64,000 nucleotides of DNA from Sinomicrobium oceani (GTDB lineage Bacteria; Bacteroidota; Bacteroidia; Flavobacteriales; Flavobacteriaceae). Under the pieces are notes generated by a model. It was not told the origin of the DNA and searched no databases. It saw only the letters and a list, made by a program, of their open reading frames with translations. Shown piece after piece: positions 20,758 through 59,385 of the stretch. The position numbers and the translations under genes were made by a program. Position 1 is the stretch's first letter. Each line of letters opens with the position of its first letter. The DNA is taken from positions 248,001-312,000 of the forward strand of contig NZ_FPJE01000003.1 in the NCBI RefSeq assembly GCF_900119185.1, read 5' to 3'.

Positions 20758-20991
20758 CATCAACTAACCAACCAAAATTATGAAAAAAACTAACTAACCG
20801 TTTTAAGGTATGCTGCAAAGTTCAAATAGCATGCCAAACATCTCAGGCTTTTATAACTACCGTAGTTAAATGCTTGTTAAATGGCGATAGTGTATAACAG
20901 GTGAAGATGAGGTTTACTGTTTCCGGGGAGCAGGAACCTGGCAAGTATTCCGGCAAGGGAGTGTCGGGGCGCGACTGTCCGGAAATAATAA

Positions 20992-21018
20992 GGGGCCGGT
21001 CTGATATGGCCGGCCCTT
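20992..21018 (-). terminator. Rho-independent terminator of uvrA
   Basis: A GC-rich stem (GGGGCCGG with CCGGCCC across a TCTGATATGG loop) lies 29 bp after the uvrA stop, and on the minus strand is followed by a T-rich stretch. Confidence 0.75.
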
Positions 21019-21046
21019 GTGCATTGTTGCAATACGGCTGCTACGA

Positions 21047-29886: not shown

Positions 29887-31005
29887 ATGAACCCACGTCG
29901 CGATTTTATTCAGAAACTTGCCCTTTCCGCTGCTGCTTTACCTTTTGCACCATTATACGGTGCTCCCCATGAACTGGATGTGTTCGGCTTCTCCGGAGAT
30001 CAGTCCGTATTAAGAGTAGCTATTATGGGATTGGGTAGCTACGGAACACGGGTAGCCGATGCCATGCAATCCTGTAAACGGGCAAAATTGGCAGGAGTGA
30101 TCAGTGGCACACCTTCGAAAATAAAAAACTGGCAGAAGAAGTATAATATTCCGGAAAAGAACTGCTATAACTACGAAAATTACGACCGGATTAAAGATAA
30201 CCCGGATATAGATGCGGTGTATGTCATTACCCCCAATGCATTGCATCACGAAGCTGTATTGCGGGTTGCGGCAGCAGGAAAGCACGTGATCTGTGAGAAA
30301 CCTATGGCCCTTAATGCAAAAGAAGGCGAGGAGATGGTGGCTGCCTGCAAAAAGGCCGATGTGAAATTGCTGGTCGGATACAGGATGCACTTTGAGCCGA
30401 ATACGCTGGAGCTTATTCGGATGCGAAACGAAGGGGATTTCGGAAAGATCATGTTTTTTCAGGGACTAAGCGGGTTCCGTATCGGGGATCCCAACCAGTG
30501 GCGCCTGGATAAGGCACTTGCGGGTGGTGGTTCGCTGATGGATATAGGTATTTATGCCATTAATGGCGCACGCTATATGGTGGGCGAAGAGCCTGTATGG
30601 GTTACTGCACAGGAGACCAAAACCAATCCCGTAAAATTTAAAGAAGGGGTAGATGAGACCATTCAGTTTCAACTCGGCTTTCCCGGCGGTGCCGTGGCAT
30701 CATGCCTGTCTACGTATAACATGAACTATCTCGACCGGTTTTTTCTGAATGGTGAGAAGGGCTTCGGCGAACTGCAACCCGCTACGGGTTACGGTCCGAT
30801 AAAGGGCCGAACACACCAGGGACCGCTTACAGAGCCTCATGTGGTACATCAGACCGTTCAGATGGACGAGATGGCAGGAATTATTCTCGATGGGAAAAAA
30901 GCTGTAGTGCCTGTAGACGGGCAAGAAGCCGTGAAAGACCTGAAGATTATAGATGCCATTTACAACGTGTGCAGGACCGGGGAAAAGCAAAAGCTCGAAC
31001 TGTAA
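29887..31005 (+). CDS. Tat-exported Gfo/Idh/MocA family oxidoreductase
   Basis: 372 residues. The N-terminus MNPRRDFIQKLALSAAALPF is a twin-arginine signal, so the protein is folded with its cofactor and exported. The Rossmann nucleotide-binding motif is VAIMGLGSYGTRVADAM, and CEKPMALN carries the family's conserved Lys-Pro. Members oxidise sugars or sugar derivatives with bound NADP; periplasmic forms resemble glucose-fructose oxidoreductase. Its nearness to the polysaccharide locus (1.5-2.5 kb) is suggestive, but it lies outside it and has a separate direction from the CBM lipoprotein. Confidence 0.87.
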   Translation: MNPRRDFIQKLALSAAALPFAPLYGAPHELDVFGFSGDQSVLRVAIMGLGSYGTRVADAMQSCKRAKLAGVISGTPSKIKNWQKKYNIPEKNCYNYENYDRIKDNPDIDAVYVITPNALHHEAVLRVAAAGKHVICEKPMALNAKEGEEMVAACKKADVKLLVGYRMHFEPNTLELIRMRNEGDFGKIMFFQGLSGFRIGDPNQWRLDKALAGGGSLMDIGIYAINGARYMVGEEPVWVTAQETKTNPVKFKEGVDETIQFQLGFPGGAVASCLSTYNMNYLDRFFLNGEKGFGELQPATGYGPIKGRTHQGPLTEPHVVHQTVQMDEMAGIILDGKKAVVPVDGQEAVKDLKIIDAIYNVCRTGEKQKLEL

Positions 31006-31116
31006 GACGGCAGGCCTTTATTTTACCGTGCATTACGGTATCCCGATATACATTTCATCAGATCATAACAGCGGTATTGGAGAAAGCAGAATATTAAAAA
31101 TGATTTAAATTCATAT

Positions 31117-31163
31117 TTAACATATAGGATATATATGTTAAATGAAAATAATGTTTATATTTG
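31117..31163 (+). promoter_or_regulatory. Operator-like palindrome plus -7 box with no gene downstream
   Basis: TTAACATATA (31117-31126) and TATATGTTAA (31132-31141) form a perfect 10-bp inverted repeat with a 5-bp centre. TATATTTG at 31156-31163 matches the -7 consensus; no TTG lies at the right distance, only TTA, which may mean activator dependence. Transcription would enter the structured, gene-free region to about 31533. Confidence 0.55.
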
Positions 31164-31164
31164 T

Positions 31165-31533
31165 AGCTGTTAAGATCAGATTTTTTAGTGTCAATTTTTT
31201 TCAGCATTATGGTCGATGTTGTTGCATCATCCGGGCACCGGGAAGCGTATAAGGCTATTCAGAACATCCCGGGATCTCTTGGGGGTCAGCCCGGATGAGC
31301 AACAATTATGATGACGTTCCGCGGGTCTATCCGTAAAAAGTCAGTCCGGGAAAGTAAACTGGTCATGCAATGCTCCTGCTCAGATACTGTCATCTCCGTA
31401 ACACTATAGTGCTATTTCATGTATCCGTACCCGGAGGCAGTCGGTTTTGCCTTTCCGGTCCGGCGAGCTTACATCCGGATAACCATAAAAGTATAATCGC
31501 ATCATTCTGTATGCAGAACGATGCGATTGTATA
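31165..31533 (+). ncRNA. Candidate structured RNA
   Basis: No frame longer than about 33 codons. TTGTTGCATCATCCGGGC (31219-31236) pairs with GCCCGGATGAGCAACAA (31289-31305) over 17 bp with one bulged A. The loop of about 52 nt contains further short complementary stretches. The region ends with a hairpin (AATCGCATC ... GATGCGATT, about 31495-31533, extended by TTCTG/CAGAA inside), which may also terminate the CBM lipoprotein gene from the other side. The helix is seen directly; that it is transcribed is inferred from the -7 box at 31156-31163. No known RNA family recognised. Confidence 0.45.
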
Positions 31534-31560
31534 GAAGTTTTTACTATCCGGAATGTTTTC

Positions 31561-32967
31561 TTATTCCTTTGTCAGGTAGATATCGTCTACATACCAGTCA
31601 AAATCCCTTGCGGTATCGTCCGGCGAAGTATTCCCGAAATCGGCATCATCGCTTCGGAGCACCAGTATTTCGGATATAGACGACAGGTCCGGCGCATTGA
31701 AATCTGCCAATGGTATTTTTACTTCATGCCATTTACCATCTCTTGCCATTCCGTAAGTTTCATCGGTAGTACCATGATGGAGCGTTACCCAGTAATTGGT
31801 ACCCCCGGCTTTGATCCGTATCCGGATATTGGATGTCGATGATGTTTTCAGGCTGATGTGATAATGGGTGTAAGAAGAAGCATTGACATTAGCCCTGGGG
31901 AATAAAGTGGCCATGGCCCCCCATGTTTGCGGGCTGGAAGAATTGGCCGGATCGAATTTATAATATAAAGCACGATTGCCATGAGCGGCGTCTTCCACTT
32001 CGCTAATTACAAAATTGGCATTATTAATCGGTGGGATTATGGCTGCATTGGTTTCTGAGATCTCCCGTTCGGTATAAATACCCAATCCGTCTATAGGTGG
32101 TGTTGCTCCCCGGAGCGTAACGTTTACCTTATCGAGGTTGGTTCCTCCTCCGGTAAAATAGAATCTTAAGGTATGTAGGCCCTGGGAGAGGGTTATTCCC
32201 GGTACGGAGATTCCGGTGTATACAGACCATCCGCCGGTATTTTCAAAATCACCGGTTTCGCCCAGATCGGAGATAGCCCCGGTATTGGGATCTACCCGCT
32301 GAAGTTTTACGGAGTGTCCACCCTCGTCATGTCCGGACGCCAGCATAAACTCAAAATCATAATCTCCGGTTTCCAGTACATTAACGGTATAGTTTACCCA
32401 TTCTCCTTCGTTCGTATAGCCAATATTGGTTACGTTTTCTCCGACTTCAACATCAACTCCCCGGTCATCCCGGTATACGGAACTTCCGTTGGTCACCGCG
32501 AGATTCTCTTCTTCGGTATCGTGATATGCGATCCCCTCTCCACCGAGGTCAAAATTTTCTGCTTCTATAATCCCTTCTAAATCTAAAGGAGTACCTCCAT
32601 AAGGCAGAGGTTCCGGTATACCTTTGACGGTTATGGAAAACGTCCGGGTATCTATAGTATTGTCAACGTATTTTACGATCAGTTGCGCTTCGAAGGTCCC
32701 AGGTGCAGTATAGGTGACCGTAACGTCGGAGTTTATGGATGTGGAAGGAGAACCTCCCTGAAAGGTCCAGTCCGTGGTCAGGGCTTTGGTCGAGGTACTT
32801 GTAAAGCGAACAGTATTCCCGAAATCGATCTCCGAAGCCGATGCTTCCGCAACAGTTTCCCCTTTGTCGAACAGGGCGACTTCCTGGATGTCATCCTCGC
32901 AGGAAAGCGATAATACAAGACAGAGCAAAAACAAATACGAGCCTTTAAGAGGTATATATTTTTTCAT
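31561..32967 (-). CDS. Surface lipoprotein with PKD and CBM6 modules, probable glycan-binding protein
   Basis: 468 residues. A lipoprotein signal ends in LSLSC (Cys23). A PKD-like domain (about 35-115; TTDWTFQGGSPS) is followed by a CBM6-type beta-sandwich (about 130-290; starts IIEAENFDLGG, contains GYTNEGEWVNYTVNV). A second jelly-roll domain follows (about 300-468; YYKFDPANSSS to FDWYVDDIYL). There is no catalytic domain. The layout fits a surface glycan-binding protein that holds polysaccharide near a SusCD pair. It is divergent from the hybrid sensor gene and shares its 560-bp intergenic region. The glycan is unknown. Confidence 0.85.
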   Translation of the reverse strand: MKKYIPLKGSYLFLLCLVLSLSCEDDIQEVALFDKGETVAEASASEIDFGNTVRFTSTSTKALTTDWTFQGGSPSTSINSDVTVTYTAPGTFEAQLIVKYVDNTIDTRTFSITVKGIPEPLPYGGTPLDLEGIIEAENFDLGGEGIAYHDTEEENLAVTNGSSVYRDDRGVDVEVGENVTNIGYTNEGEWVNYTVNVLETGDYDFEFMLASGHDEGGHSVKLQRVDPNTGAISDLGETGDFENTGGWSVYTGISVPGITLSQGLHTLRFYFTGGGTNLDKVNVTLRGATPPIDGLGIYTEREISETNAAIIPPINNANFVISEVEDAAHGNRALYYKFDPANSSSPQTWGAMATLFPRANVNASSYTHYHISLKTSSTSNIRIRIKAGGTNYWVTLHHGTTDETYGMARDGKWHEVKIPLADFNAPDLSSISEILVLRSDDADFGNTSPDDTARDFDWYVDDIYLTKE

Positions 32968-33530: not shown

Positions 33531-36500
33531 ATGCTTCGTTGGATCAGAAATATCATTTGCCTGTTTTGTATGGCCGGAGGTTGGGGTTCGCTCCAGGCAC
33601 AATCTCCCGGATTGTATTTTGAACATATCAGCTATGACGAGGATTTCTCTCCGAGTATGATCTCCTGTCTTGCCCAGAGTAGTAAAGGATTTGTCTGGAT
33701 CGGTACCGAGAACGGATTGTTCCGGTACGACGGATACCGGTTTTACAGGTATGTAAGAGATAAAACACAGGGAAGTTTGAGTAATAACCACGTCAATACG
33801 ATCTTCGAAGACAGTGAAGGGACATTGTGGGTGGGGACTAATCACGGGGTAAACCACTTCGATAAAAATGCGGATCATTTTTCTCCGGTGGATGTATCCA
33901 TGACTAAAGGCGGACGCAATTATATCAGCTCTTTTACCGAGGATGATGCTCATAATGTGTGGGTCGGAACTTTTGGCGGTATAAAAAAGCTGAACAAAAA
34001 GGAGAAACTCCTGGAGAATATTACCAGCGATTCCAATTTTGAACTCAATAAGAGCAGGGTGCTATCTCTGTTTTATGACAAAGACTACGGAGTTTTTGCG
34101 GGGACGGCAAAGGGACTGAAGTGTTTTGACCCGGCCACCTCCGAACTCCGGGAACTTCCTGAAGTTTTGCGTAAGAACAAAAGTTTTTTAAAAGCTAAGA
34201 TCTGGAAAATGGTCAGGGAACCCGATGGCAAGCTGTGGTTCGGAACAGAAACCATGGGCGCATTTTTGTATTCCCCGGAGAAGAATACACTGGCCCGGTT
34301 TGCGCATCAATACGATGATCCGGCCACCATTTCTTCCAATTGGGTGAATGATATCATCACTGTCGACGCCAGTACCACCTGGTTTGCTACCAAGGACGGA
34401 CTCAGTGTATATGATAAGAATAGTGAGACTTTTAGACGATACAGGCACCATCCCCTGAATAATTCGAGTCTGACAGATAATGATATTCAGTGTTTCCTGA
34501 AAGACCGGTACGGGTGTATCTGGGCGGGTACGATGGCCGGTGGTATCAATTTTTACAATAAGGCCAACTCCAACTTTATCCATATAGGGGAAACCACAGG
34601 ACAGGGATTCGGACTGAATAACTCCATTGTCCGTGCCCTGACCCGGGAAAACGATCATGCGCTTTGGGCAGGTACTTATGGCGGAGGGTTAACCTATCTC
34701 GATCTTGAAGCGCAAAGTTCGGTATCGTACATGATTGAGGATAAGATTGATAAAAAAACCAAAAATGCGATTACTGCCCTGGCCAGAAAAGATAAAGATC
34801 ACTTGGTGTGCGGGACCCTGAACGGGTTATATGAATTCGACCAGCGTCTTAAAAAATTTACGCCGGTCCCGCTTTCGGCGAATGGAGGTGTGGAAGACGA
34901 ACGTCCGATTACCTCGCTGTTGGCAGACGGGGAAGAAATCTGGGTGGGAACTGATGGTAACGGTCTTAAACGGGTGCTGAAAAACGGTAGTGTAGAGCAT
35001 TATCTTCACGACCGGTCGTCGCATTCCCTTTCCGATAATTTTATCATGGATCTCGAAAACAGTGAAGAAGGGATCTGGATATCTACCCAGAACGGGTTAA
35101 ATTATTTTGATAAATCCCTTAAAAAAGTAACCCGTATATACAGAACCGGAGGCGGGCCGTCCTCTATTGGGAACAATAGCCTTACCGTTTTGTTTACCGA
35201 TTCGAAAGGACGTTTGTGGATCGGGGGCGATTATGACGGACTGTTTTGTTATGACCACACTTCCGATACGTTTTCAAGGCTCAATAAAGAGAAGGGCTTT
35301 ACCAATGCTGCGATAAAAAGTATTACCGAAGACGCCCGGGGACATATCTGGGTAAGCTCAGAAGATTTCCTTTTTCAGATCAGCATCAAGGGAACGTCTG
35401 CTACACTCGGACCCGACGACTATGCGATTACAAGATACGCTGCCAAAGACGGGGTTTCCGTAAAGCAGTTTTCCTTTAAAACGGGGAATGTACTCAATGA
35501 AAGACAACTGGTTTTCGGTTCTACAAGGGGACTCATTGTTTTCGAACCCGACGAATTGTTTAAAACCCCCAATGATAGTGAAATAGTACTGACAAAACTC
35601 ATCATCAATAATGAGACCGTTGTTCCCGGTCCGGGTAATGGGATACTGAAAAAGACCATATCGGAGACTTCAGAAATCATAATTAACCATGATCAGGGCT
35701 ATATAGGACTGGAATTCAGTAGCCTTGATTTTATCAATCCAGGAAAAAGCAGGTATGCCTACAAGCTTGATGATGGCCTGAGAGCGGACGAATGGCATGA
35801 TACCGGCACCCAGAACCGGATAAACCTGTCGAATCTGAACCCCGGAGATTACATACTTTCCATAAAGTCTACCAACGAAGATAATGGCTGGAATCCCCGG
35901 GTTAAAACATTGCAGATCCGGGTGCTTCCGCCCTGGTGGAAAACCTGGTGGGCTTATCTTATATACGGATTGGTACTGATACTGTTTGGTCTGGGCATTT
36001 TCGTTTTTATAAATAACCGGGTGAAATTAAAAAGAAGAATGTTTCTGGAGCATGTAGAAAGCGAACGCAAACAGGAAATGCTCGATATGCAGCTCAATTT
36101 CTTTACGAATATATCTCACGAGATAAGGACTCCGTTGACGTTGATCAAAGGGCCTGTCGAAGAACTGCTGTCTGCTTCCGGTAAGGACCCCAAAACAAAA
36201 AAGAAGTTAAAAACTATTCAGCAGAACTCCGACCGGCTGCTAAAACTGGTCAATGAACTGCTCGATTTCAGAAAGTCGGAAAAAGGGCTGATGCGTATCT
36301 ATTGCAAAAGACAGGATATCGTTTCTTTTTGTTTTGAGATATATGAATCTTTCAGAGAGCTGGCCGCCAAAAAAAATATTGAATATAAATTTGTGCTGAA
36401 TTCCAATTCTATACAGGTATATTTCGATAGGGATCAACTGGAAAAAGTGATATTCAACCTGCTTTCCAATGCTTTTAAATTTACAGGTAAAAACGGAAAA

Positions 36501-37679
36501 ATAGTATTTGCCGTAGAACAACAAGGCCCCGATAAAGTACTTATTAAGATTAAAGATAATGGTATAGGTATTCCCGAACATAGTAAGGATACCATTTTCA
36601 ATCGTTTTTTTCAGGTCGATAACAGGGGGATCCACAATATGGGAAGCGGGGTCGGGCTTGCACTTTCCAAAACTATCGTAGAACTTCATCAGGGGGAGAT
36701 TACGGTTCCGGATGAAAAGGAAAGCTGGGCCAATACGGTCTTTCAGATCACGTTGTTACTCGGAAAAGATCACCTGAACCCGGAACAGATCAGCGAAGGC
36801 AGATCGGGAGCGTACGACATGGTCATCGATTCGGAAAGCGTTCCTTCGAAGTCGCAGGAGGTTGTCAAAGATGACCAGGATGAAGATGTGGTGTTTAAAG
36901 CATTCGATCCGGGAAGAAAGACAATTTTCATCATAGAGGATAACGACCAGGTTAGAATATTTGTAAACAGTATACTGAGTGATACCTACAACGTCATGGA
37001 TTTTTCAAATGCGGGAGATGCCATGTCTTATATGGAAAAGGAAATCCCGGATCTGATCATCAGTGACATTATGATGCCGGAGATGGACGGACTCGAATTC
37101 TGTACCTATTTGAAAACCAACGAAAGCACCAATCATATCCCGGTGATATTGCTCACTGCCAAGGCTTCGGTAGATCATAAGGTTGAGGGACTCTCTACCG
37201 GTGCAGATGCTTACATTTCAAAGCCTTTCAGTACCAGAGTACTGATGTTGAGTATCCAGAACCTGCTCAATTCCAAAGAGGTATTTCGCCGGAAGTACAG
37301 TGGCAATTTTATCGTCAATTCCGACCTGGATACGCTGACCACTCCGGAAGAGCTGTTTCTTAAAAAGCTTATGAAGATTATCGGGGAAAATATCGAGAAT
37401 CCCGATTTTGATGTGAGCATGCTCATAGATAAAATAGGAATGAGCCGGACTGTGCTCTATAAAAAGGTGAATACACTTACCAATCATTCCGTAGCCAGCC
37501 TTATCAAACAGGTCCGTTTAAAAAAGGCAGCGGAGATTATCTCGAGAACGACCTATCCCATTTCGGAGGTGGCTTTTATGGTGGGGTTTAACGACCGAAA
37601 ACATTTTAGCCGCGAATTCAAAAAAGTGTATAAGGTTTCCCCTACGGATTATAAAAATTCCGATTACAAGGCCGGATAA
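33531..37679 (+). CDS. Hybrid two-component system regulator (HTCS) of the polysaccharide locus
   Basis: 1382 residues in one protein. Signal peptide (1-24); periplasmic two-propeller region of Reg_prop repeats (about 30-690, repeated WVGT/WIGT ... GLFRYD and similar); Y_Y_Y domain (about 745-805); one membrane helix (about 812-835); histidine kinase with phospho-acceptor His863 in SHEIRTPL; HATPase (NAFKFTGKNG, GIGIPE, GSGVGLALS); receiver with Asp1179 in SDIMMPEMDG; and AraC-type DNA-binding domain at the end (ISEVAFMVGFNDRKHFSREFKK). It senses a sugar fragment in the periplasm and activates susC and its neighbours. It lies directly upstream of susC on the same strand. Confidence 0.96.
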   Translation: MLRWIRNIICLFCMAGGWGSLQAQSPGLYFEHISYDEDFSPSMISCLAQSSKGFVWIGTENGLFRYDGYRFYRYVRDKTQGSLSNNHVNTIFEDSEGTLWVGTNHGVNHFDKNADHFSPVDVSMTKGGRNYISSFTEDDAHNVWVGTFGGIKKLNKKEKLLENITSDSNFELNKSRVLSLFYDKDYGVFAGTAKGLKCFDPATSELRELPEVLRKNKSFLKAKIWKMVREPDGKLWFGTETMGAFLYSPEKNTLARFAHQYDDPATISSNWVNDIITVDASTTWFATKDGLSVYDKNSETFRRYRHHPLNNSSLTDNDIQCFLKDRYGCIWAGTMAGGINFYNKANSNFIHIGETTGQGFGLNNSIVRALTRENDHALWAGTYGGGLTYLDLEAQSSVSYMIEDKIDKKTKNAITALARKDKDHLVCGTLNGLYEFDQRLKKFTPVPLSANGGVEDERPITSLLADGEEIWVGTDGNGLKRVLKNGSVEHYLHDRSSHSLSDNFIMDLENSEEGIWISTQNGLNYFDKSLKKVTRIYRTGGGPSSIGNNSLTVLFTDSKGRLWIGGDYDGLFCYDHTSDTFSRLNKEKGFTNAAIKSITEDARGHIWVSSEDFLFQISIKGTSATLGPDDYAITRYAAKDGVSVKQFSFKTGNVLNERQLVFGSTRGLIVFEPDELFKTPNDSEIVLTKLIINNETVVPGPGNGILKKTISETSEIIINHDQGYIGLEFSSLDFINPGKSRYAYKLDDGLRADEWHDTGTQNRINLSNLNPGDYILSIKSTNEDNGWNPRVKTLQIRVLPPWWKTWWAYLIYGLVLILFGLGIFVFINNRVKLKRRMFLEHVESERKQEMLDMQLNFFTNISHEIRTPLTLIKGPVEELLSASGKDPKTKKKLKTIQQNSDRLLKLVNELLDFRKSEKGLMRIYCKRQDIVSFCFEIYESFRELAAKKNIEYKFVLNSNSIQVYFDRDQLEKVIFNLLSNAFKFTGKNGKIVFAVEQQGPDKVLIKIKDNGIGIPEHSKDTIFNRFFQVDNRGIHNMGSGVGLALSKTIVELHQGEITVPDEKESWANTVFQITLLLGKDHLNPEQISEGRSGAYDMVIDSESVPSKSQEVVKDDQDEDVVFKAFDPGRKTIFIIEDNDQVRIFVNSILSDTYNVMDFSNAGDAMSYMEKEIPDLIISDIMMPEMDGLEFCTYLKTNESTNHIPVILLTAKASVDHKVEGLSTGADAYISKPFSTRVLMLSIQNLLNSKEVFRRKYSGNFIVNSDLDTLTTPEELFLKKLMKIIGENIENPDFDVSMLIDKIGMSRTVLYKKVNTLTNHSVASLIKQVRLKKAAEIISRTTYPISEVAFMVGFNDRKHFSREFKKVYKVSPTDYKNSDYKAG

Positions 37680-37883: not shown

Positions 37884-40800
37884 ATGAAAAACCAAAACCA
37901 GAAAAATGTTCTTTTACATTGTGTAGACTACCTCAGATGGGGATTACTCTTCGGTATCTGCTTTGTATTTTCGAATGTTCATGCACAAAATCAGGTGATC
38001 ACCGGTACGGTGGTCGATGATACCGGTTTACCGCTTGGTGGTGTGAATATCCTGATCGAGGGGACTACCATCGGAACACAAACCGATTTTGACGGAAATT
38101 ACACGATCAATGCCATACCCGGACAAAAACTCAGGTTTTCCTTTGTCGGAATGAAATCCGTTACCGTGGCCGTAGCTAACCAGGATACAATAGATCTGGC
38201 AATGGAAAGTGACAACCAGCTGGACAATGTTGTCGTTATCGGGTACGGGACCAAGAAGAAGAGCGATGTTATCAGTTCGGTGACCAGGGTAGAAACCGAA
38301 GACCTCGTCAAAGTAGCCACTTCCGATATCGGTGAGATGTTAAGGGGAAAAGCTGCAGGGGTACAGGTTACCCTGGCCAGCGGTGCCCCGGGAGGTTCGT
38401 CTACAATCCGGATACGTGGACAGCGTTCCATTACGGGAGGAAATGATCCCATTATTATTGCGGATGGGGTGCGTATAGGCAGTATTAACGATATCAATGC
38501 CAATGACATCGAGTCGCTGGAAGTGCTTAAAGATGCTGCGGCTCAGGCCATCTACGGGGCAAGGGCTTCGAACGGTGTTATCCTGATTACCACCAAAAGG
38601 GGAAAAGAGGGAAGGATGAGTGTATCCTATAACGGCTTTTCGGGACTCCAGACTATTAACAGAAATTTTGACATTTACAGTGGCGAGGAATTTGCCCGGT
38701 TAAAACGGGAGGCATTCCGCACCAATAACGGTGGGGTGTACCGCCCTGATGCCGAAATATTTTCTACTCTGGAATTGGAAAGTGTGGAAAATGGTAATTA
38801 CATCAACTGGGAAGACTTGATTTTGCGGACCGGACAAACCCAGAACCACGCTTTGAGTATAGCTTCCGGGACGGAGAAATTCAGTATATTCAGTAGTGTC
38901 AATTATATCAATACCCGGGGCGTTATTCCCAATTCCGATTACAGCAAGGTAGGCTTACGGCTGAATGCAGATCAGAAAATCCGTGATTGGCTGAAAATAG
39001 GGCTCAATACATCCTTTCAGTTCTCCGGGACCAATAATCCCAATAATGGAGGTGTATTGCTCAACAGTATTACCACAGCCCCTCTGGGAAGGGTATATAA
39101 TGATGATGGTTCTTTACGATGGTTGCCCGGCGGCTTCGAAGAAAACAAGAATCCGTTGATCGATCTCAAAGAAACGACAAACGAAATCCGGAACAGGAAC
39201 GATATTCTCAACGTATTTGTGGATGTCATGCCTTTTGAAGGATTCAAATACAGGCTGAATGCGAGCCGGCGGTCGTGGAATTACAAGCGGTACTCGTACA
39301 ATACATCGAGATCCCTTGCAGGGATAGCGCGTAACGGGCAGGGAAGCGGTTCGGTACAGTTTCAGGATAATGTGGAATGGCAGATAGAAAATATCCTGAC
39401 GTATGACTTCAGTATAAAGGAGCGTAATCATTTTGCCGTAACGGCAGTACAGAGTGTATCCGAAACGGAATACAATAATTTTGTAAATGAGGCAGACCGT
39501 ATTCCCAATGATATTCTGGGGATCAGGGGACTGGAAGGTGCTTTTTTGAATACGCCATCTATTTCCGGAAACAAGAGAGGTATTGTCTCTGCCGTAGGAA
39601 GAGTCGAATATGATTATGACAATACCTATTATGTGACCGTTTCCGGAAGAGCAGACGGCTCTACTGTATTCGGCAGAAATAATAAATGGGCCTTTTTCCC
39701 GGCGGCGAGTGTGGGCTGGAATGTACACCGGGAAAACTTTATGGAGGATCTCCGGGCGGTGAACACTATGAAATTACGGTTCAGTTACGGTAGTGTGGGG
39801 AATGAAGGGATCAGTCCCGGACAAAGCCAGAGTACGGCAAACCAGCGGGATTACGTCATTGACGGAAACCGGGTTTCGGGCTATGTCCCCGGAAGTACAC
39901 TGCCCAATCCCGACCTGAAGTGGGAAACTTCGACCACATTCAACGCTGCCATAGATCTCGGGTTTTTCAACAACCGGGTCACGTCTACCGTGGAGTATTA
40001 CAATACCCGGACCAAAGACCTGCTGGTGGCCGAAGCCCTGGACCCTTCGTCCGGTTATACGTCAAAACTGACCAACATCGGGGAAATAGAGAATGCGGGA
40101 ATAGAAGTAACCCTGAATGCGGATATTATCAGGAAAGAAGACTTTAAAGTAAATCTCGGAGCTTCCTTTACCAAAAACAGGAATAAGATTATCAGTCTTT
40201 ACGGAGAAGATGCCGATGGCGACGGCAGGGAGGATGACGATGTTCTCAACCGCAGGTTTATAGGATATCCTATAGGTGTTTTTTACCAGTACAAACCCGT
40301 GGGGATATTCCAGGAGGGCGAAAATATCGCAGGGTCCGCCCAGCCCCTTGCACTTCCGGGAGATGTCAGGTTACAGGATACCAACGGTGATGGTGTGATC
40401 AATGACCAGGACCGTGTAATTACTTCTCAGGCCCCGGACTGGTTCGGAACACTATCTGTCAGTGCCGAATATAAAGGTTTTGATATGTCGGCCGATATCT
40501 ATACCGTACAGGGTATAATACGGAATAACCCGTTCCTCTACGGATATCAGGAGGGAGGATCACTGAGAGGTATTAAAAACGGGATAAAACAGAATTACTG
40601 GACCCCGGAAAATCCCGGGGGAGATTTCCCGAGACCAAGAGAAGGCAACGACCCGGCCAATATTTATTTTCTCGGGTTACAGGATGCCTCTTATGTAAGA
40701 TTACAGAATATTACCCTCGGATATACGCTGCCGGAAGAGGTGCTGACCCGTTTCGGACTGAGCAATCTCCGGATTTACACCACCGGAAGTAATCTCATAA

Positions 40801-57272: not shown

Positions 57273-57689
57273 TCAGGCGCTGCATTTCCCACACACGCCC
57301 TTCACCACCAGGTTGGCTTCTTCTGGTATAAACTCTCCGGGCAGGTCGATGTCCGGGATTTTGTATTTGGGCAAACAGAAAGTTTCCCGACACATCCGGC
57401 AATGGAAATGCACATGGAGGTCCTGTTCTATATTGCATTCACAGCCTTCTTCGCACAGGGCATACTTGGGGGCGCCGGTACCATCATCGATACTGTGTAC
57501 CAGTCCGTTTTCCTGAAAGGTTTTCAGCGTGCGGTATAGTGTCACCCTGTCTGACTTTTCAAATACTTCTTCCAGGTCGGAAAGGCTGACAGCCGCTTCC
57601 TGACCGGACAGAGCTTCCAGTACCAACAGCCGCATGGCTGTTGGCCTAATGCCCTTTTGTTTGAGTTTAATTTCGAGTTCTTTGATCAT
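57273..57689 (-). CDS. Fur-family transcriptional regulator (Zur/Fur type)
   Basis: 138 residues from ATG at 57689 (MIKELEIKLKQKGIRPT). DNA-binding winged helix (IRPTAMRLLVLEAL ... DRVTLYRTLKTFQENGLVH). The metal sites are HVHFHCRMCRETFC and CGKC at the C-terminus, giving two CxxC pairs for structural zinc. Inside a Zn/Cd-type efflux cluster a zinc-sensing role is more likely than iron, but the sensed metal is not fixed by sequence. It is 45 bp after the PII gene. Confidence 0.88.
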   Translation of the reverse strand: MIKELEIKLKQKGIRPTAMRLLVLEALSGQEAAVSLSDLEEVFEKSDRVTLYRTLKTFQENGLVHSIDDGTGAPKYALCEEGCECNIEQDLHVHFHCRMCRETFCLPKYKIPDIDLPGEFIPEEANLVVKGVCGKCSA

Positions 57690-57734: not shown

Positions 57735-58076
57735 CTATTTCATATCAAATTTTTTAATGGATTTTCCTGTTTTTATGCGAAAAGCATCCTCGATTTCCGT
57801 AACATAAATAATGCCATCACCGGGTTCAGGCGTTTGTGCCTTACCACATATCAACTGTACTGCTTTATCCATTTCTTCATTCTGACAGACCAGCTCCAAT
57901 TTTACAATCGGACTGTCGGTAAAATGAAAATCCAGGGAAGGTGAAGCATCTCTTTTCTTATAGGCTCCTGTACCTTCTCCTTTGGATAGCGTAATGCTTT
58001 CAAATCCGGCATCGCGCAAAGTTTCCACTACGGTTTGTACTCTATTAGGTTTTATAAATGCTTTTATTTCTTTCAT
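57735..58076 (-). CDS. PII-like signal protein of the metal-efflux-linked group
   Basis: 113 residues with the PII fold: MKEIKAFIKPNRVQTVVETL at the start and GDGIIYVTEIEDAFRIKTGK at the end. The T-loop lacks Tyr51, the residue uridylylated in GlnB (position 51 is His), and the B-loop lysine Lys90 that binds ATP phosphate is Ile. So it is not a normal nitrogen sensor. A PII subgroup (called PII-NG in the literature) is known beside CusA-type pumps; this fits. It lies 82 bp after the CusB gene. The ligand is unknown. Confidence 0.88.
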   Translation of the reverse strand: MKEIKAFIKPNRVQTVVETLRDAGFESITLSKGEGTGAYKKRDASPSLDFHFTDSPIVKLELVCQNEEMDKAVQLICGKAQTPEPGDGIIYVTEIEDAFRIKTGKSIKKFDMK

Positions 58077-58118
58077 CTTGATAATTTTTGGTTTTAATCT
58101 TGCCCGAAGTTGTCAATG

Positions 58119-58148
58119 GGCAGTTGGCAAGAAAACATGCCAACTGCC
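58119..58148 (-). repeat. Stable hairpin between adaptor and PII genes
   Basis: GGCAGTTGGCA (58119-58129) and TGCCAACTGCC (58138-58148) form a perfect 11-bp stem. On the minus strand no T-run follows, so it is not a standard terminator for cusB; it may mark an mRNA processing or stability point. On the plus strand it is followed by TTTTGCTCTTTT. Confidence 0.6.
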
Positions 58149-58158
58149 TTTTGCTCTT

Positions 58159-59385
58159 TTAGTGACTATGAGAAGTCTGACTTTTTTTCATCTCTGAAAT
58201 CAGGTAATACGCATTGTTCCAGGCGATTTTTGTCCCTTTTGGCAGGGGTTCCAAAAGTTTAATCTCTACCCATCCATCTTCGATAATACCTGTTCGTACT
58301 TCCACAGCTTTAAATGCCCATTCGGTTTTGCCATCTTCCTCATGCGCTTCTGCCATAAAAATGTAGGGCTTGCCTTCTTCTTCAATGACCGCTCCCTCAG
58401 GCAATGCCTTTACCTCATTATTACCGGTCCTGATCTTACCATTGATATACATACCCGGAATCAGGAAATCTTCCTTTTTGTCGATCTCTGCATGTATATG
58501 AACAGCTTTCGGATTTTGCTCAAATTGTTTACCAACGGAATAAATTTTGGCATTTAGGGTACTGCCCGGGACCGACTCTACGGTAAAGGACACCTTCTGT
58601 CCTTTTTTCACTTTATATACGTCCTTTTCAAATACCATGAGGTCGGCGTGGATATGGTCGGTATTGACCACCATGAACATTTCGGTCTGGGGATCGGCAT
58701 ACTGTCCCATCTGAACCTTTACTTTTTCAATGTATCCATTGATGGGGCTTACCACGGGTACATATTGATAGATATTCCCGCTTTGTACCTTTGCCATATT
58801 CAGGCTGAGCTGTTTCAATTGGGCTTCATAGCCTTTGACCTCTCCCTTCATTGCTTGGTAATCGGCCACCGTTTCCTGGTACTCCTTGCCGGAGCCTACT
58901 TCTTCCTCATACAGTCGTTTCTGTCGCAGCATTTCCTTTTCCAGGAACTGGAAGCGACTGTAAGCTTTCACATAATTGGTTTGAAGATTGGTCAGGTTGG
59001 GGTGAGAAAGGTAAGCCAATGCCTGACCCTTATTCACCTTGTCACCTTCTATCACTTTTATAGAAGAAACATTGGCACCAAGAATAGCTGTGACGGTTGC
59101 TTCGTGCTGGGGAGGGACTTCCAACTGGCCGTTGGCCTCGACCACCCCGGAAAGTGTACGGGAGGGCAATGTATCTACTTTGATGCCCAAACTTTCAAAT
59201 TTAAGATCAGAAAGGTGAAGTTCGCCCATACCTTCTTCGCTATGGCCTTCTTCTTCACGCCCTGCTTCTTCTCCCGCATGATCTTCATGCCCGGCCTCAG
59301 CAGTATCAGCCGATTTATTACCACACCCCGTAAATACCGATACCATAAGTGCCAGTGCCAGTATGTATATGATTTGCTTTCTCAT
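58159..59385 (-). CDS. RND efflux periplasmic adaptor (CusB/CzcB type)
   Basis: 408 residues. Lipoprotein signal with SVFTGC (about Cys21). A His/Glu-rich linker follows (AGHEDHAGEEAGREEEGHSEEG), probably binding metal. Then come the barrel-sandwich hybrid domain, split by a helical hairpin (YVKAYSRFQFLEKEMLRQKRLYEE), and the beta-barrel and membrane-proximal domains (VVSPINGYIEKVKVQMGQ, VPGSTLNAKIYSVG). It links the pump in the inner membrane to the outer-membrane channel. The pump gene lies 36 bp upstream. Confidence 0.93.
   Translation of the reverse strand: MRKQIIYILALALMVSVFTGCGNKSADTAEAGHEDHAGEEAGREEEGHSEEGMGELHLSDLKFESLGIKVDTLPSRTLSGVVEANGQLEVPPQHEATVTAILGANVSSIKVIEGDKVNKGQALAYLSHPNLTNLQTNYVKAYSRFQFLEKEMLRQKRLYEEEVGSGKEYQETVADYQAMKGEVKGYEAQLKQLSLNMAKVQSGNIYQYVPVVSPINGYIEKVKVQMGQYADPQTEMFMVVNTDHIHADLMVFEKDVYKVKKGQKVSFTVESVPGSTLNAKIYSVGKQFEQNPKAVHIHAEIDKKEDFLIPGMYINGKIRTGNNEVKALPEGAVIEEEGKPYIFMAEAHEEDGKTEWAFKAVEVRTGIIEDGWVEIKLLEPLPKGTKIAWNNAYYLISEMKKSQTSHSH

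Follow-up and report, generated by a model that had tools for sequence, protein, structure and literature searches.

The window is a stretch of 64,000 nucleotides from the Sinomicrobium oceani genome, and the segment under study (31006-31560) is the gap between two convergent genes within it. The upstream gene encodes a GFO/IDH/MocA oxidoreductase. The convergent gene encodes a lipoprotein and marks the border of a polysaccharide locus. This locus includes a hybrid two-component regulator (33531-37679, assigned with Pfam) and, beyond it, SusC-like, SusD-like and glycosidase-like proteins that we named from their own sequences rather than by a domain scan; the susC-like gene starts at 37884. 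An earlier reading of the letters (the sequence-only reading) had described the segment as gene-free. This holds, as the longest open reading frame (ORF) in 31006-31560 has 54 aa and no ORF of the segment matched a protein family in Pfam, NCBIfam or PHROGs. The features are the following.

29887-31005, plus strand: GFO/IDH/MocA oxidoreductase gene, with orthologues in the congeners G002 (84%) and G003 (80%).
31057-31187, plus strand: outer inverted repeat (31057-31072/31166-31181, 16 nt, 88%) around the palindrome, with a TTTTTT run after it; the oxidoreductase mRNA may end in this structure.
31115-31143, no strand assigned: perfect palindrome ATTTAACATATA-GGATA-TATATGTTAAAT (31115-31126/31132-31143, 12 bp per arm, 5-bp spacer); candidate operator or part of a 3'-UTR hairpin.
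31156-31163, plus strand: TATATTTG box, matching the Bacteroidetes sigma-A -7 box TAnnTTTG (the flavobacterial consensus given in PMC9723704), with no TTG at -33.
31205-31313, plus strand: predicted three-way junction (-50.6 kcal/mol, z -4.3 to -4.45).
31205-31211/31307-31313, plus strand: outer 7-bp stem of the predicted junction.
31219-31236/31289-31305, plus strand: core helix of the predicted junction, 17 Watson-Crick pairs interrupted by a single bulged A (31226).
31238-31272 and 31273-31287, plus strand: branches of the predicted junction.
31492-31531, minus strand: putative terminator hairpin of the convergent lipoprotein gene, 15 pairs, tail ATACTTTTAT; imperfect on the plus strand (A-C mismatch).
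31561-32967, minus strand: convergent lipoprotein gene with PKD and CBM6 domains, whose G002 orthologue (81%) sits on a different contig.

We assessed whether the fold of the segment exceeds what its composition would give. The 17-bp helix with one bulge that the sequence-only reading had placed at 31219-31236 and 31289-31305 is exact, the bulged base being A31226, and its pair probability is ~0.99 in all contexts tested. It is the sole helix of this kind of at least 17 bp in the 64 kb. That such a helix is not expected by chance was borne out: in 60 locally shuffled windows, the mean number of helices was 0.000 at 17 bp or more and 0.017 at 16 bp or more. None of 200 and none of 300 shuffles folded as well as the junction (31205-31313), which ranks second for over-folding in the 64 kb (~8500 overlapping 110-nt windows, two strands). 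The plus strand folds better (z -4.45) than the minus strand (z -2.78) because five G-U pairs would be A-C on the latter. We note that this evidence for strand direction is mild, because the fold was picked by its energy on the plus strand. Positions 31330-31486 of the plus strand fold ordinarily (z -0.2), and the description of the whole region as strongly structured is therefore limited to ~110 nt (31205-31313), where the fold is non-random. The folding predictions confirm a non-random fold in the gene-free segment.

Other parts of the window are also strongly folded. The top over-folded segment, 20880-21040 on the plus strand (-70.6 kcal/mol, z -4.84), has an MFS transporter gene on one side and uvrA on the other, and its 3' part resembles a uvrA terminator hairpin. 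We detected no DNA match for it in five congeners and no Rfam match. As this segment is equally folded and orphan, folds of this kind occur in this genome independently of the polysaccharide locus. The third and fifth ranks in the 64-kb scan are held by 58066-58175 (plus strand) and 57556-57665 (minus strand), near cation-efflux genes.

We searched for relatives of the segment at the level of both sequence and structure. Nothing relevant was found in Rfam at gathering or permissive thresholds, and no covariance model reached its gathering cut-off. Short chance-level matches aside, the DNA of the segment was absent from five congeners and ~295 other genomes of the family (a 299-genome family sample). 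Plasmids and phages gave no match at all, nor did viral contigs in a pattern search. A covariance model built from the single sequence entered twice, run with stricter filters in the large searches, recovered no sequence but itself, whether in the genus, in 397 family genomes or in 395 order genomes (the order sample also lists family members). An exact 17-mer had 20 matches in genome contigs, nearly all from unrelated phyla and each single; we treated these as chance rather than as homologues, and the ones from Bacteroidota (L047, L058 and L059) were negative with the covariance model. The segment has no second copy in its own genome. The second match in that genome, L002:1501-1555 (G000:C51:227253-227307), 78% identical over ~50 bp to 31145-31193, was rejected as a copy of the fold; the shared sequence is of the AT/T-run type. 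L002 is intergenic, follows a gene for an M48-like peptidase and carries a terminator-like hairpin, GAGCTGTTCTGCAAAAGAACAGCTTTTTT, with a TATATTAG box before the hairpin. By sequence comparison, the segment is species-specific and an orphan among the genomes searched, in collections that may omit very near relatives.

The oxidoreductase is 80-84% identical in the congeners G002 and G003 (loci L072 and L073) yet has new downstream neighbours each time, as if marking a variable junction. It is followed by another SusC/D-like locus in G002, by fabF 90 bp on in G003, and by the folded segment here; the fabF orthologue of Sinomicrobium oceani sits on another contig. Because these neighbours differ and the segment is absent from the relatives searched, we regard the junction as variable and the segment as species-specific. 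A serious possibility is that the segment is non-functional intergenic filler, left behind when DNA was inserted or rearranged (such as the end of an old mobile or palindromic element) and persisting at the junction as an inert foldable inverted repeat. The exchange of sequence behind the oxidoreductase from genome to genome, the lack of the segment in all relatives searched and the second, equally folded species-specific intergenic segment at 20880-21040 are consistent with such an origin. A relic is harder to reconcile with the intact, mismatch-free 17-bp helix, which is unlike the product of long decay, and the searches gave no second genomic copy, plasmid or phage match, or protein remnant.

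Upstream of the fold, a promoter-like palindrome and a -7 box had been proposed. Both sequences are real, and the palindrome is perfect, although it has 12 bp per arm and not 10. It appeared in 3 of 3000 shuffles of the local 200-bp composition (~1 per 1000) and occurs once in the 5.02-Mb genome when up to 3 mismatches are allowed; its half-site has no other occurrence in the 64-kb window at up to 1 mismatch. Its centre would lie at about -41, assuming a start near 31170. Of shuffled versions of the same AT-rich 200 bp, 20% contain a TAnnTTTG box by chance. Flavobacterium promoters have a TTG element at -33, and TTG was not found 17-23 nt upstream of TATATTTG. With a -7 box only, at chance level, and no -33 element, a dedicated promoter before the folded segment is not supported by the sequence.

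As an alternative to an operator, the palindrome possibly belongs to the 3' end of the mRNA for the oxidoreductase. This would fit a reading in which the nested repeat (31057-31181) and its T6, possibly together with the downstream junction, form a 3'-UTR that protects or ends this message, with no separate promoter. The outer repeat and palindrome, followed by TTTTTT, fold at -27.2 kcal/mol (z -2.84), and the terminator scan found no plus-strand terminator at 30950-31650, whereas the oxidoreductase orthologue of a congener has a terminator-like hairpin <60 bp past its stop. Against a 3'-UTR, which we consider less likely but still a serious alternative, the outer stem would enclose a 93-nt loop, atypical of an intrinsic terminator, and the three-way junction starts 200 nt downstream of the stop codon and lacks a T run after it.

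The closing hairpin reported at about 31495-31533 is also real (31492-31531), but what was taken for the 3' end of an RNA is a better minus-strand terminator of the CBM6/PKD gene. On the minus strand it has 15 unbroken pairs, including one G-U, and a T-rich tail, 33 bp past the CBM6/PKD stop; on the plus strand the G-U turns into an A-C mismatch and T5 stands several nt off. The terminator scan called it on the minus strand only, and the CBM6/PKD orthologue of G002 has a minus-strand hairpin of the same type and different sequence ~60 bp past its stop (L075:10877-10911). Because it is perfect on the minus strand only and has a counterpart behind the congener orthologue, the hairpin is best explained, from its sequence, as belonging to the opposite gene. 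A plus-strand transcript might still be stopped by this hairpin. Downstream of the G002 orthologue, L075:10700-10900 is a further gene-free and possibly structured stretch, of unrelated sequence and with no Rfam match.

Least probable of all is a decayed protein gene that folds by accident: G+C climbs to a coding-like 0.50 across 31200-31400, but no frame exceeds 54 aa, the protein family searches were negative, and none of the genomes searched contains a DNA relative in which the gene is intact.

On our best reading the segment would yield a structured, probably plus-strand transcript, either a small RNA (sRNA) or a 3'-UTR. Our best explanation, which we put forward tentatively on the predicted fold, is a species-specific functional plus-strand structured sRNA between convergent genes. 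We counted in its favour the helix beyond shuffles, the second-rank over-folding, the plus-strand bias, the high pair probability (~0.99), the lack of an ORF and the unique upstream palindrome, and against it the lack of a homologue, the chance-level -7 box without a -33 element, the hairpin that better suits the opposite gene and the unexceptional stretch 31330-31486. The candidate new RNA of the sequence-only reading thereby keeps its non-random fold in gene-free DNA, with the plus strand favoured; its promoter and 3' hairpin stand on weaker ground. We infer that the segment would be transcribed within an RNA of the plus strand. A short intergenic sRNA is its most likely form, with a start near 31170 and an end within or close to the hairpin that putatively terminates the opposite gene. 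The stable fold may protect this RNA, leaving the loops or the U-rich 5' end (31170-31204) for pairing, and the palindrome (about -41) could be a repressor or activator site that substitutes for the missing -33 contact.

Any effect of such an sRNA on the neighbouring polysaccharide locus would come from base pairing or from interference with the convergent CBM6/PKD transcript. The earlier suggestion that the segment may act in the control of this locus is unsupported, as it drew on adjacency and the neighbours differ in congeners, and we give it low odds. In a simple duplex-energy target search, which is uninformative because it ignores accessibility, the top match was uvrA, and SusC had a z of -2. 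We regard as very unlikely the more elaborate scenario of a new three-way-junction RNA, with a palindrome-bound protein as its switch, that adjusts the polysaccharide locus next to it and was acquired together with that locus by this species alone. If transcribed, the segment would add a lineage-specific small RNA bordering a polysaccharide locus in bacteria other than the gut Bacteroides, in which RNAs of this sort have received little study. If it is not transcribed, it would serve as a warning that a variable junction can fold strongly without encoding an RNA, and that the terminator of a gene on the opposite strand is readily mistaken for an RNA end.

We compared the segment to known RNAs of the Bacteroidota. 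It has the stable fold, the length (30-500 nt) and the lack of an ORF that are among the features expected of intergenic sRNAs of this phylum. GibS and FopS are Bacteroidota RNAs tied to polysaccharide metabolism (PMC7366714, PMC11697453), and the segment adjoins a polysaccharide locus. GibS (~145 nt) and FopS (65-70 nt) have an unstructured 5' seed and a terminator, whereas we predict a three-way junction that has no Rfam match. DonS-type antisense RNAs, as cited in PMC7366714 and PMC9723704, likewise lie beside a SusC/D-type locus, and plus-strand readthrough from the segment would run antisense to the CBM6/PKD gene. As these citations present them, however, DonS-like RNAs are cis-antisense and paired with susC homologues, whereas the segment has convergent genes on its two sides and is 6 kb away from susC; it ends before 31561 and the susC-like gene starts at 37884, so that it is antisense neither to susC nor to its leader. 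Rfp18 and other folded, independently transcribed RNAs of Flavobacterium psychrophilum (PMC9723704) are, like the candidate, strongly folded flavobacterial intergenic RNAs, although Rfp18 is genus-conserved and deletion-tested and the segment is without a homologue among the genomes searched. The strain-specific intergenic sRNAs of Bacteroides thetaiotaomicron (PMC7366714) are similarly intergenic, gene-free and without relatives outside the strain; theirs have mapped start sites and terminators, whereas the segment is known from sequence and its promoter is doubtful. Given that 27 of the 49 high-confidence intergenic sRNAs of B. thetaiotaomicron are strain-specific (PMC7366714) and that strong folds occur in 18 of 45 independent transcripts of F. 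psychrophilum (PMC9723704), an orphan folded RNA would be an ordinary kind of object. By analogy, a fold that is strong, species-specific and placed in a gene-free junction would fit a 3'-UTR or an inert relic, and it also fits a known kind, the strain-specific intergenic sRNA.
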